Source: Hymenobacter monticola
Lineage (GTDB): Bacteria > Bacteroidota > Bacteroidia > Cytophagales > Hymenobacteraceae
Direction of reading: 5' to 3'
Assembly: GCF_022811645.1 (NCBI RefSeq)
Contig: NZ_CP094534.1
Location: 5,146,001-5,210,000 of the forward strand
Length of the DNA: 64,000 nt
The notes beneath the pieces were generated by a model. The model worked only from the letters and a program-made list of their open reading frames with translations, did no database searches and had not been told where the DNA came from. Position numbers and translations under genes: made by a program. Shown here one piece after another: positions 6,447 through 10,048 of this stretch. Each line of letters starts with the position of its first letter. Position 1 is the first letter of the stretch.

Positions 6447-6532
6447 GACCCCGTGCAACCGCGTGGGCCGGCCACCGGTCATGGCTCCACACAGCCGGTC
6501 CTGTACAGCCGGCTTTGCCATCTGCTTTCTAC

Positions 6533-7108
6533 ATGCCGCCTTCCATTGTCACCGTCGATGAAGCGCTGCTGGCGGCGTGCCGGCGTGGCGAGTCGGCGGC
6601 GCAATACCAGCTCTATAAAAAACTGTCGTACAACCTGATGGGTGTATGCCTGCGCTATTGCCCCAACCGGGCCGAGGCGGAGGACGCGCTGCAAAACACG
6701 TTCGTTAAAATTTTCACCCGCCTCGACCAGTACCGCGGCCAGGGGCCGTTTGAGGGCTGGGCGCGCCGCATTGCCGTCACCACCTCGCTGCACGCCGTGG
6801 AGCAGTACCGCCTGCGCCACCCCGGCCCCAGCGGCGACGCCCTCGACGAGCTGGCCGACGGCCTGCCCACGGCTGAGCCTTCGGCTGTGGACCAGCTGGC
6901 CGCCGACGACCTGGTGGCGCTGATGGCCACCCTGCCGCCCGGCTACCGCACCGTGCTCAACCTCTACGCCGTGGAGGGCTACTCGCACCAGGAAATCGGC
7001 GAGCTGCTGGGCATTGCCGAAGGCACCAGCAAATCGCAGCTGGCCCGCGCCCGGCGCCTGCTCGAAACCCGCCTGGCGGCCCTAAAAATCCCGAATTACC
7101 ATGTCTGA
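6533..7108 (+). CDS. ECF-type RNA polymerase sigma factor
   Basis: 191 residues. Region 2 (about 15-85) contains LMGVCLRYCPNRAEAEDALQ and FEGWARRIAV; region 4 (about 125-180) contains LPPGYRTVLNLYAVEGYS followed by the HTH EIGELLGIAEGTSKSQLARA. There is no region 3, as expected of the ECF (group 4) class. ATG 6533 is chosen over TTG 6515. The stop lies inside the start of the next gene (eight-base overlap), which fits the usual sigma/anti-sigma operon. Target promoters cannot be predicted here. Confidence 0.93.
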   Translation: MPPSIVTVDEALLAACRRGESAAQYQLYKKLSYNLMGVCLRYCPNRAEAEDALQNTFVKIFTRLDQYRGQGPFEGWARRIAVTTSLHAVEQYRLRHPGPSGDALDELADGLPTAEPSAVDQLAADDLVALMATLPPGYRTVLNLYAVEGYSHQEIGELLGIAEGTSKSQLARARRLLETRLAALKIPNYHV

Positions 7109-8906
7109 CCCTACACCCCAAGATTTGTACGACGCCCTGCGCAAGCGCCTGGCCGACTACGGCCAGGAGCCGCCGCCCGATATGTGGGCCGGCATCCGGC
7201 AGCAGCTGCCGCCCCCGGTAGCCGTGCCGCGCCGGCGGCGCTGGCGGGCCAGCCTGGCGCTGCTCAGCCTGCTGTTTGTGGTGGCCTCGCTGGCCACTTG
7301 GCAGTGGCAGCGCGCAGGCCATTCGGCCGTGCAAACGGGCGTGGCGGCGCGGCGCGGGCCGGCAGCAGAATCGGTTCTTAATGGGTCAAATAAGCAGTCG
7401 AATAACTCAATTGCCACAGCGCCAGCAGGCGAAGCTTCCAGCGCAGTGACGGCGACGAGCTCTGCTGGTTCGGCTTCGGGCGCGATGCCGACGAGGCTAG
7501 GTGCCGGGGTGCCGGGTGAGGCCCCTGCTGCTAGCCCCGGGCCGCGTGCAGTGGCTTCGGCCACACCAGCACCGGCCGCAGAAGCCGGGGCAAGACCGGC
7601 CGCTGCGCCTGCGGCCTCAGCTTCGGCCGGGACTACGGCAACAGCTGGCCGCACCGTCCGGCCCAAACGGGCGCTGGCCGGAGTCGGTTCCAAAGCTTCG
7701 ATAGCCCGGACGCGGCCCTTGGTGCGCCCAACGCGAGCAGCTGGCCTGGGGCATGAGCCGGCAACAACAGGGCAGCCAGGTGGCGCTGTCTCGCTGGGCA
7801 CGGCGGCTACGGTTCGGGCTTCGCGGTCGGCCACGCCACGTTCCTCTACAACGACTTTCGCGCCCGTAACTCCAGCGGCGCTTGAGCCCGTTGCCACCGG
7901 CCGGCCGGCTTCTTCTACTTCGCCCCAAGGAGCTACCAGAGTGGTGTCCGCCACAGCTGGAACAGTTCCGGCATCAGCCCCCTCGGAGCCAGCCATTGCG
8001 GCAGCGCAGCCCGATGTGAGCCCAACCGCTCAGTGGGAGTGGCTCAACGCACGTCTGATAAGCCTACAATTGCCCGGTGGGGCCACCCCGGCCGCCCCTA
8101 AGCCAGTAGAGGTACCGGCCCTGCCGCCGCTGGTGCCCACCGTTGTGTCGCGGTGGGCGGTGCAATTTGTGGCGGGGCCGGGCCTGACCTACCGCCACCT
8201 GGGCTCGTCGCCGCTTTCCTACACCACTCTTACCACCCTCGCCCCTGCCCCCACCTCGCCCGCTACTTCGAGCGGCAACATCAGACCGGTTGTTGTTTCA
8301 ACCACCACAACCTCTAGCTCCGGATTGGAACGCCCGGCCCTGGGCTACGGCGCGCAGTTGAGCGTACGCCGCACCCTCACGCCCCACTGGACCCTGAGCG
8401 CCGGCCTGGGCTATGCCGAATACGCCACCCAGCTGGCCCTGCGCCAGGTGAATGCTTCCCAAATCACGCGGTCCAACTACGACTTTGCCTTTCTCGACAG
8501 CCTCAGCCGGACCGATGGCACCACCATCCGCCAGCGCGACACCTACCGGTTTCTGACGGTGCCGCTGCGGGCCGGCTACGCCTGGACCACCGGGCCGCGC
8601 TGGCAGGTGGGCTTGCTCGGGGGCATCGATGCCGCCATCTACCTCGGCGGCACCACCACCGAAGGCTCGGCCTGCGCCTGCCAGCCCCAGGCCTGGCGCG
8701 CCTCGGGCAGCCCCTACCGCAGCCTGAGCCTGGCCGCCAGCCTCGGGGCCGAGGTGCGCTACCGGCTGGCCGGGCCCTGGCAGCTGTTGGCTCAGCCCAC
8801 CGCCAGCTACCTGCTCACGCCGCTGGCCAAGCCGGTGAGCGGTTATTCCATTCGCCACCTGTTCGGCGCCACGGCGCTGCTGGGCGTGTCCTACGACCTG
8901 CCCTAG
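7101..8906 (+). CDS. Probable dual membrane-spanning anti-sigma factor (Dma-like)
   Basis: 601 residues in four parts. Residues 1-48 are a short cytoplasmic region with EPPPDMWAGI, resembling the N-terminus of ECF-linked Bacteroidota proteins. Residues 50-67 are one membrane helix behind a basic RRRRWR. Residues 70-345 are low-complexity Ala/Thr/Pro/Ser, apparently disordered. Residues 351-601 alternate like outer-membrane beta strands and end in an aromatic-containing YDLP. The order fits the dual membrane-spanning anti-sigma factors described in Bacteroides, with one protein reaching from sigma factor to outer membrane. The eight-base overlap with the sigma gene supports this. No sequence comparison could be made; a plain barrel protein is the alternative. 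Confidence 0.68.
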   Translation: MSDPTPQDLYDALRKRLADYGQEPPPDMWAGIRQQLPPPVAVPRRRRWRASLALLSLLFVVASLATWQWQRAGHSAVQTGVAARRGPAAESVLNGSNKQSNNSIATAPAGEASSAVTATSSAGSASGAMPTRLGAGVPGEAPAASPGPRAVASATPAPAAEAGARPAAAPAASASAGTTATAGRTVRPKRALAGVGSKASIARTRPLVRPTRAAGLGHEPATTGQPGGAVSLGTAATVRASRSATPRSSTTTFAPVTPAALEPVATGRPASSTSPQGATRVVSATAGTVPASAPSEPAIAAAQPDVSPTAQWEWLNARLISLQLPGGATPAAPKPVEVPALPPLVPTVVSRWAVQFVAGPGLTYRHLGSSPLSYTTLTTLAPAPTSPATSSGNIRPVVVSTTTTSSSGLERPALGYGAQLSVRRTLTPHWTLSAGLGYAEYATQLALRQVNASQITRSNYDFAFLDSLSRTDGTTIRQRDTYRFLTVPLRAGYAWTTGPRWQVGLLGGIDAAIYLGGTTTEGSACACQPQAWRASGSPYRSLSLAASLGAEVRYRLAGPWQLLAQPTASYLLTPLAKPVSGYSIRHLFGATALLGVSYDLP

Positions 8907-8940
8907 CGCCTCCCGGCTCCGGCCCAACCGCACTTTTTTT

Positions 8941-9924
8941 ATGAACCGACTTGTGCTAACAGGTCTGGGCGTGACGCTGCTGGCCAGTAGTTGCCGCCAA
9001 GACGACCTGGTGCTCTACACCCCGGCGGCCGATTCGTTGGCGGCGGCCACCAGGCCCTTTGCGCCTGCCGTGCAGACGTTCACTGTAAATCTGGGCCAGG
9101 CGCAAACCTTGCGCACCCGCGGCGGCGCCACCATCGCATTCGCAGCCAACTCGTTGGCACTGCCCAACAATGCCCTGGCCACGGGTACGGCCACGCTGCG
9201 GGTGCGCGAGCTGCGCACGGTGGGCGACATGCTGCTCACGGGTATGCACACCAACCTGGCGGTTTCCTCGGCCCAGCTGCTGGTGTCGGGCGGCGAATAC
9301 AACGTGCAGGTTTGGCAGGGCAACACCCGCCTGCGCTGGAGCAGTCCGTTCATTGGCTCGGGGCCGGCCACGCCGGGCTGGCCCCGGCTCAGCGCGCCCG
9401 TTCCCACGGCGGGCCTCGACACCACCCGCATGTTTCTGTGGGCCATGCCCCTGAATAGAAACGCGGCGGTGAATGGCGCGGCCGATTCCGTTGGCTGGCA
9501 GCCGGCCATACAGGGCGGGGCCACGGGCTGGGCCCCGGTTCGCCCAAGCGGGGGATTCTACAGCGTCAATTTTCCGCTTGACACCATCAGCTGGCTGAAT
9601 TTCGACCAGTACTGGCGCCCCGTGAACAACGCAAACTGGACCACGGCCCAGGTGCGCGTGCCCGCCGGCGCCACCGAAACCCGGGTGTACCTCCGCCCGG
9701 TGGGCTACACCAGCCTCAGCCGCACCTTCGCCACCGCCGACCCCACGCTGTGGCAAAACCATCTGCCCGAAGGCACCGACACGCAAGTCATTGTGCAGCA
9801 GTTGCGCGACGGTCAGCTTTATTTCGCGGCGGAACGCTACATCTGGCGCCGGAATGCGGTGTACGCTCCCGCGCTAAAGGCCTATACGGCCGCTGAATTG
9901 GCGCAGCTAGTGCAGCAGTTGTGA
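8941..9924 (+). CDS. Hypothetical lipoprotein of the sigma factor operon
   Basis: 327 residues, family not recognised. The N-terminus is a short signal with lipobox LLASSC, giving a mature Cys at residue 18 followed by RQDD. The rest is predicted mainly beta, with segments such as RTRGGATIAFAANSL and GTATLRVRELRTVGDMLLTG that recall the ZU5-like or carboxypeptidase-regulatory beta sandwiches of Bacteroidota surface lipoproteins. It starts 34 bases after the barrel protein, so it probably belongs to the same transcript and may be a partner or stress-sensing lipoprotein in the outer membrane. Confidence 0.7.
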   Translation: MNRLVLTGLGVTLLASSCRQDDLVLYTPAADSLAAATRPFAPAVQTFTVNLGQAQTLRTRGGATIAFAANSLALPNNALATGTATLRVRELRTVGDMLLTGMHTNLAVSSAQLLVSGGEYNVQVWQGNTRLRWSSPFIGSGPATPGWPRLSAPVPTAGLDTTRMFLWAMPLNRNAAVNGAADSVGWQPAIQGGATGWAPVRPSGGFYSVNFPLDTISWLNFDQYWRPVNNANWTTAQVRVPAGATETRVYLRPVGYTSLSRTFATADPTLWQNHLPEGTDTQVIVQQLRDGQLYFAAERYIWRRNAVYAPALKAYTAAELAQLVQQL

Positions 9925-9955
9925 CCAGTATGTGGGGTGGGATGAGCCAGCACGG

Positions 9956-10023
9956 GTACCCCGAAGCTCCGCTTCGGCTCGCGGCTGCATCGTTCGCCGA
10001 GCCGAAGCAAAGCTTCGGGGTAC
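9956..10023. repeat. Long hairpin between convergent genes
   Basis: Arms of about 26 bases starting GTACCCCGAAGCTCC and ending CTTCGGGGTAC pair with two mismatches around a 16-base loop. It sits between the lipoprotein gene and the convergent hutI, so it may act as a bidirectional terminator. It also looks like a member of a dispersed palindrome family. Confidence 0.75.
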
Positions 10024-10048
10024 ACGTGCTGCTTGTTCAGGCAGCCAG

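Follow-up and report, generated by a model that had tools for sequence, protein, structure and literature searches.

In a 64,000-nt stretch of contig NZ_CP094534.1 of Hymenobacter monticola (GCF_022811645.1), referred to below as the window (its genome is labelled G000), three adjoining genes encode an extracytoplasmic function (ECF) sigma factor, a 601-residue protein laid out as a dual membrane-spanning anti-sigma factor (Dma), and a lipoprotein, and we consider it probable that they make up the operon of a three-part surface-to-gene switch in which the lipoprotein is the partner of the Dma-type protein. The finding that carries this reading is that relatives of H. monticola have lost the lipoprotein gene and one loop of the Dma barrel jointly, which suggests a first concrete input for a protein of this kind.

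Joint loss of the lipoprotein and a barrel cysteine pair

The loop in question lies between strands 5 and 6 of the barrel (residues 520-541; 8658..8723, + strand), is extracellular by topology, and contains Cys525-x-Cys527 (8673-8681). The trait was first noticed among 31 named loci fetched by their barrels, five of which had no downstream lipoprotein, and four of those five lacked the otherwise invariant Cys-x-Cys; these discovery loci (L104, L105, L107, and L108, equivalent to G094, G132, G102, and G070) are all included in the larger set analysed here. That set came from a search of 120 genomes of the genus with a barrel profile, which matched 85 at an expectation value (E) of 1e-15 or below and 83 of these at 7e-39 or better; the remaining two matches are weak and paralog-like, and the 83 genus loci plus seven from a sister genus make up 90 ortholog loci. 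Among the 90, the lipoprotein and the Cys pair occur together in 73, both are missing from 15, the pair occurs by itself in one, the lipoprotein never does, and one locus is uninformative. An earlier count had given 72 loci with both, 15 with neither, and three with the pair only, and these three (G153, G139, and G191) were then examined one by one. In G153 (L207) the lipoprotein lies immediately 3' within the open frame of the barrel, and the locus was rescored as having both; in G191, the uninformative locus, the contig stops 23 nt after dma; G139 is taken up below.

Relocation of the lipoprotein elsewhere in the genome was not seen in the 15 lipoprotein-less genomes, in none of which a full-length copy was found anywhere, bar partial matches in larger open reading frames (ORFs) of G102 and G122. 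The next gene along is the same in most loci, a hutI-type gene: among loci without the lipoprotein, it follows dma after 30-175 nt in 11 and after 700 and 896 nt in two more, whereas the distance is 1070-1440 nt in all but one of the 50 lipoprotein-bearing loci in which hutI was located (49 of 50); in one lipoprotein-bearing locus it lies 142 nt beyond the scored end. The Cys pair was lost in different ways. G094, G130, and G132 have the loop deleted, G157 and G180 have the pair replaced in an otherwise intact loop, and a nine-genome clade has other shortened loops lacking the pair. In G072 (L170), the usual position is taken by a 232-aa lipoprotein that is not detectably related by profile, and the loop resembles none of the others, so that a partner swap is possible.

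On a tree built by a quick method from the sigma factor and the barrel without the loop (89 loci, omitting G191; G072 is on a long branch), each trait needs five changes, and the starred branches force five. Counting losses only, there are six of the lipoprotein and five of the pair, and all five pair losses fall on lipoprotein-less branches, which make up 14.7% of the tree length; the probability of five out of five by chance is ∼7e-5, and that of three out of three for the lineages outside the discovery set (G157, G072, and G180) is ∼3e-3, both figures treating branches as independent.

In lipoprotein-bearing loci, 23 barrel columns are conserved at 90% or more, and the seven least kept in the 15 loci without the lipoprotein (fraction kept: C525 and C527, 0; P412, 0.13; L409, 0.27; R411, 0.40; Y364, 0.53; T520, 0.60) all lie in loop 520-541 or at extracellular ends of strands. 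General decay of the barrel was not seen in these lineages: ten conserved columns (G359, E410, G435, G437, R479, P488, G508, Y554, P566, and G595) are kept in 15 of 15. These alignments are most simply read as reflecting a contact surface on the barrel's outer face, which would decay, or be rebuilt, once its partner is gone.

The lipoprotein is also tied to these genes by position. It was matched in 38 of 150 genomes of the family, and in all 37 genomes other than that of H. monticola the best match adjoins both the sigma gene and a barrel of the same protein family, an association that is thus beyond chance; a second-best match, L071, has neither neighbour. Farther away, linkage to sigma-Dma-like genes was seen at 6 of the 18 loci fetched from the order and at 3 of the 20 from the class (the latter being the best or near-best matches rather than a random sample), with a partly different gene order. 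The initial annotation had raised the lipoprotein as a possible third component, and its joint loss with the Cys pair and the conserved neighbourhood in some distant relatives strengthen that suggestion.

Some loci are irregular. The open frame of L207 holds barrel and lipoprotein in 592 aa, with dma interrupted, and could reflect a frameshift, an assembly error, or a fusion; at L116 the lipoprotein ORF overlaps dma, and in G021 (L043) the sigma and dma frames are interrupted.

Operon layout, Dma-type protein, and promoter

The three ORFs were confirmed on the + strand in the order given by the initial annotation: sigma factor, 601-residue protein, lipoprotein. The sigma factor gene (6533..7108, 191 aa) starts with an ATG at 6533, with an in-frame TTG at 6515, and the assignment of its product as an ECF sigma factor is backed by matches above cut-off to Sigma70_r2 and Sigma70_r4_2 in Pfam and to TIGR02937 in NCBIfam. 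Its stop overlaps by 8 nt the start of dma (7101..8906, 601 aa; identified from the ORF, Pfam, and AlphaFold2), whose stop lies 34 nt before the start of the lipoprotein gene (8941..9924, 327 aa; identified from the ORF and the lipobox); because of this overlap and short gap, a single transcript of all three genes is likely. Overlaps of 4 or 8 nt between sigma and dma are usual in the orthologs, and by tblastn a sigma gene stands beside dma in 88 of the 89 other loci, the exception (L165) being cut by a contig end; the label of "no sigma" given to some loci in a first neighbourhood count was an artefact and is superseded by this count. Among named relatives, the barrel is closest to those of Hymenobacter species (83% identity to H. 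properus across 251 residues).

The proposed layout of the 601-residue protein, a short tail, a single membrane helix, a linker of about 275 residues, and a barrel at 351-601, is borne out by AlphaFold2 and PF13568. The AlphaFold2 model, made from a 32-row alignment, has a whole-model mean confidence score (predicted local distance difference test, pLDDT) of 61, lowered by the linker, and contains helices at residues 6-19, 26-35, and 47-77. Residues 1-46 (7101..7238, + strand; AlphaFold2 and alignment) are a predicted cytoplasmic helical domain, putatively sigma-binding, in which L13, L17, and W29 are invariant across 36 rows. This domain matches no Pfam anti-sigma family, and it resembles the N-termini of two other proteins of the same genome that follow ECF sigma genes (37-39%; E 1.4e-7 and 1.9e-5); the second match is a weak similarity to the N-terminus of a 247-aa protein 3' of another ECF sigma gene. 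Residues 47-77 (7239..7331, + strand; AlphaFold2 and hydrophobicity) are the membrane helix; each of the 36 Dma-type proteins has one hydrophobic 19-mer, the runner-up being much weaker, and the PRRRRWR ahead of the helix presumably sets an N-in orientation by the positive-inside rule. There follows, at residues 78-351 (7332..8153, + strand; AlphaFold2 and orthologs), a disordered tether rich in Ala, Thr, Pro, and Ser, net positive and free of Cys, with pLDDT below 50 over 78-155 and 157-330. Its length is 215-318 residues in 36 proteins, and what orthologs keep of it is length, positive charge, and the absence of Cys, for its sequence is conserved no more than its composition: in the 76 of 90 loci used (14 were dropped), linker identity to the window is 30% as compared to 28% for shuffled linkers and 53% for the N-terminus.

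The remainder, residues 352-601 (8154..8903, + strand; Pfam and AlphaFold2), is an eight-stranded barrel of the outer-membrane type. PF13568 (OMP_b-brl_2) matches residues 405-554 at 32.7 bits (cut-off 27) and is found at E≤0.01 in 35 of 36 aligned orthologs; the barrel on which the original call hinged was thus predicted where expected, as eight strands within 352-600, with ten-residue pLDDT means mostly of 92-97 in strands and of 50-76 in long loops. Every part of the Dma layout that was computed (N-terminal domain, helix, tether, barrel, and neighbouring ECF sigma gene) supports the fit to Dma that had been suggested, and we regard the protein as Dma-type by layout, the likeness to Bacteroides Dma being drawn through the description in PMC13088901; binding of the sigma factor and insertion into the outer membrane are putative.

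The lipoprotein has the lipobox LASS|C18, its lipid-attachment Cys18 (codon at 8992-8994) being followed by RQDD and invariant in 31 of 31 relatives. A disulphide between barrel and lipoprotein is unlikely in the window, where the only Cys of the lipoprotein is the lipid-bearing C18. The window protein has no Pfam or NCBIfam match, its 31 relatives have no common Pfam match at E≤1, and the best hit among PDB sequences is only E 0.87; its folds may be ZU5-like and immunoglobulin (Ig)/transthyretin-like. The export signal of surface lipoproteins is, according to PMC5080379, C-x-K-(D/E)2 or a polar residue and two acidic ones, and C-R-Q-D-D of the window fits the relaxed form.

Upstream of the operon is a candidate promoter, GCAAC-N15-CCGGTCA (6455..6481, + strand), 51 nt before the sigma ATG, whose two blocks align in 22 of 22 upstream regions. 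Two such blocks 15 nt apart are of a form typical of ECF promoters. The core pattern GCAAC-N14..16-CGGTCA lies upstream of sigma in 61 of 89 loci and the reversed pattern in none; the exact motif is present in 45 of the 73 lipoprotein-bearing loci as compared to all 16 others. Ten genomes with the system, hand-picked and for the most part from the branch of the genus to which the window belongs, contain 78 motif sites against 13 for the reversed control, a sixfold excess, while 16 genomes of the same genus that lack an ortholog (best sigma match at most 55% identical) contain 13 against 18, which does not support the motif as a general ECF promoter of the genus; nor was it seen upstream of the three paralogous sigma genes tested. 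The window genome has 12 sites (control, 2). One is that of the operon itself; six lie 31-64 nt before an ATG, preceding genes for five lipoprotein-like proteins (one of them a serpin) and one small barrel protein; one lies 206 nt before the gene of a secreted-type protein, whose relatives in G112 and G164 are likewise preceded by the motif; and the last four fall inside or across open frames. Four of these targets are found again after the motif in related genomes (L307/L323, L310/L317/L318, L312/L319/L320, and L313/L324). Because the motif is enriched with the system, precedes lipoprotein and envelope genes, and recurs in relatives, it is probable that the sigma factor drives its own operon together with a small regulon of envelope genes. 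Behind one site (L311, near 2577340 of G000:C1) is a 413-aa serpin with a lipoprotein signal (PF00079, E 4e-110), a candidate outer-membrane serpin and stress output.

A proposed switch and its alternatives

One could envision the switch as follows. The operon is probably turned on by its own sigma factor, and the Dma-type protein would be a single polypeptide that reaches from the cytoplasm to the outer membrane. Its N-terminal helices would hold the sigma factor at the inner membrane, its disordered tether would cross the periplasm, and its barrel, of the size of OmpA, would sit in the outer membrane. The lipoprotein, two-domain and all-beta by prediction, would reside at the outer face and dock on the extracellular rim of the barrel, chiefly on loop 520-541, whose shape the Cys-x-Cys may fix, probably by forming a disulphide or binding a metal. 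An event at the surface (the lipoprotein arriving, leaving, or binding something) would then alter the barrel, and the tether would relay the change by tension or cleavage to release the sigma factor, which would read GCAAC-N15-CCGGTCA promoters at its own operon and at a few other, mostly lipoprotein, genes. The docked lipoprotein could either hold the switch off or turn it on. Lipoprotein-less lineages retain an intact sigma factor, anti-sigma domain, and promoter (exact motif in 16 of 16), and the system can thus work without the lipoprotein.

Several observations, however, count against a docked lipoprotein as the input. H. terrenus (G139/L103) still has the Cys pair although its genome yields no match to the lipoprotein; it would be a recent lipoprotein loss. 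A pairwise sign test gives a median p of 0.0625, which is the floor for five pairs and cannot pass 0.05. E410 and R479 are on the extracellular side and yet are kept in 15 of 15 lipoprotein-less loci, and the joint loss itself could be explained by one lost input, with no contact between the two proteins. The Cys pair is not a general trait of lipoprotein-linked Dma, being absent from the Dma-type proteins of nine of nine distant lipoprotein-linked loci, at two of which, L271 and L364, a barrel is unconfirmed. Among 72 orthologs with a lipoprotein gene (three unreadable, 69 scored), the export signal is clear (C-x-[KRQ]-[DE]2) in just 22, suggestive in 13 (at least two acidic residues at +3 to +6), weak in 29 (one), and missing in five. 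In Bacteroides, finally, the third gene of the dma2 operon belongs to a different family (DUF4943) and is dispensable for the vesicle phenotype (PMC13088901).

That last point is close to an alternative that we judge unlikely, namely that this is an ordinary Dma system in which the lipoprotein is co-transcribed purely as an output, comparable to the auto-induced BT_1557 or NigD1 of Bacteroides, and has no role in sensing. According to PMC13088901, genes beside dma2 of B. thetaiotaomicron are strongly induced on dma2 deletion and three are dispensable for the vesicle phenotype; here, lipoprotein genes also follow five of the genome's six other promoter-like sites, which makes lipoproteins a typical output. 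However, an output-only lipoprotein leaves unexplained why the loss of the loop motif and of extracellular-side residues from the barrel coincides exactly with the absence of the lipoprotein, ten other conserved columns being retained, and why lipoprotein and loop are swapped together in G072. We are likewise doubtful that lipoprotein and barrel form a surface receptor or effector for something else, such as ligand capture or adhesion, with the Dma part reporting on assembly only. ZU5-like and Ig/transthyretin-like folds are common among surface binding proteins, and members of the lipoprotein family occur throughout the class, in 163 of 345 genomes at E≤1e-15, with 17 of 20 fetched loci lying away from sigma genes; but in 11 Hymenobacter genomes searched that have no Dma ortholog, no full-length lipoprotein was found (either no match at all or partial ones within larger ORFs), so in this genus the lipoprotein does not occur by itself.

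That the 601-residue protein is a barrel with a long disordered N-terminus, no anti-sigma factor at all, and next to a sigma gene by accident, strikes us as very improbable. The missing Pfam match of the N-terminus and the putative nature of sigma binding leave it some room, but incidental neighbours would not be expected to adjoin, usually overlapping, in nearly every other ortholog locus, and the N-terminus is better conserved than the linker and resembles other sigma-linked proteins of the genome.

A more specific form of the three-part switch, which we offer tentatively and think rather unlikely to hold as stated, is that the Dma barrel is the dock of a surface lipoprotein and thereby a sensor of lipoprotein export, the ECF sigma factor making more lipoproteins and envelope proteins. 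The Cys-x-Cys loop would be the docking site, and lineages that lost or swapped the lipoprotein (G072) would have rewired it. Such a sensor would be akin to RcsF-OmpA-IgaA, but with barrel and regulator fused.

Comparison with known systems and further observations

Dma1 and Dma2 of Bacteroides thetaiotaomicron, with Das1 and Das2, were reportedly described by Pardue et al. in PNAS in 2024. In enterobacteria, the surface-reaching lipoprotein RcsF, a small OmpA-type barrel, and the inner-membrane regulator IgaA monitor the outer membrane; in the present system, the barrel would be joined to the inner-membrane regulator in a single chain with an ECF sigma output, and no sequence relation was seen as far as we looked. 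In TonB-dependent cell-surface signalling the state of an outer-membrane barrel controls an inner-membrane anti-sigma factor, but the barrel there is a separate 22-stranded transporter, whereas here an eight-stranded one is tethered to the anti-sigma factor.

As described in the available text of PMC13088901, Dma proteins have an N-terminal domain, a membrane helix, a disordered tether, and a C-terminal barrel, with a gene adjoining that of an ECF sigma factor; that text gives architecture and phenotypes and names no surface input. The window shares with Dma1/Dma2 and Das1/Das2 the layout, the ECF sigma neighbour, and a third gene (BT_1557 in the dma2 operon). The likeness is one of layout, however: BT_1557 is annotated DUF4943, whereas the third gene here encodes an unrelated-looking 327-aa lipoprotein without a Pfam family, tied to the barrel by joint loss with the Cys-x-Cys loop. 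ZU5 superfamily autopeptidases (ankyrin ZU5 and GAIN) have a CxH motif according to PMC3482391; the window lipoprotein lacks CxH, and Foldseek ranked other folds ahead of ZU5, with a template modeling score of at most about 0.2. Searches of the open PMC literature listed nothing on Dma in Hymenobacter and nothing that gives Dma a lipoprotein partner; the kind is known, and the three-part form with a coevolving lipoprotein appears, within that literature, to be new. C525, C527, and one lipoprotein gene are testable handles for it in a non-pathogenic bacterium, and the promoter motif could serve directly as a reporter and narrows the outputs to a short list.

A 34-nt inverted repeat, 91% complementary (9948..10031; not assigned to a strand), separates the lipoprotein gene from the hutI-type gene that converges on it and is possibly a terminator or a repeat element. 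Tandem copies of the lipoprotein family stand beside sigma-Dma-like genes at L363 and L364. The window genome has four or more sigma-Dma pairs: further ECF sigma genes paired with long tethered barrel-type proteins were seen on G000:C1 near 1398724-1401053 (L054), 863000-865200 (L273), and 1076889-1079113 (L274), PF13568 being above cut-off in the first two and below it in L274, and a fifth sigma match (C1:4300391) is close to another PF13568 match. A 969-aa secreted-type protein (L054, 5104-8013) comes after the genome's second Dma and is another possible partner or output.

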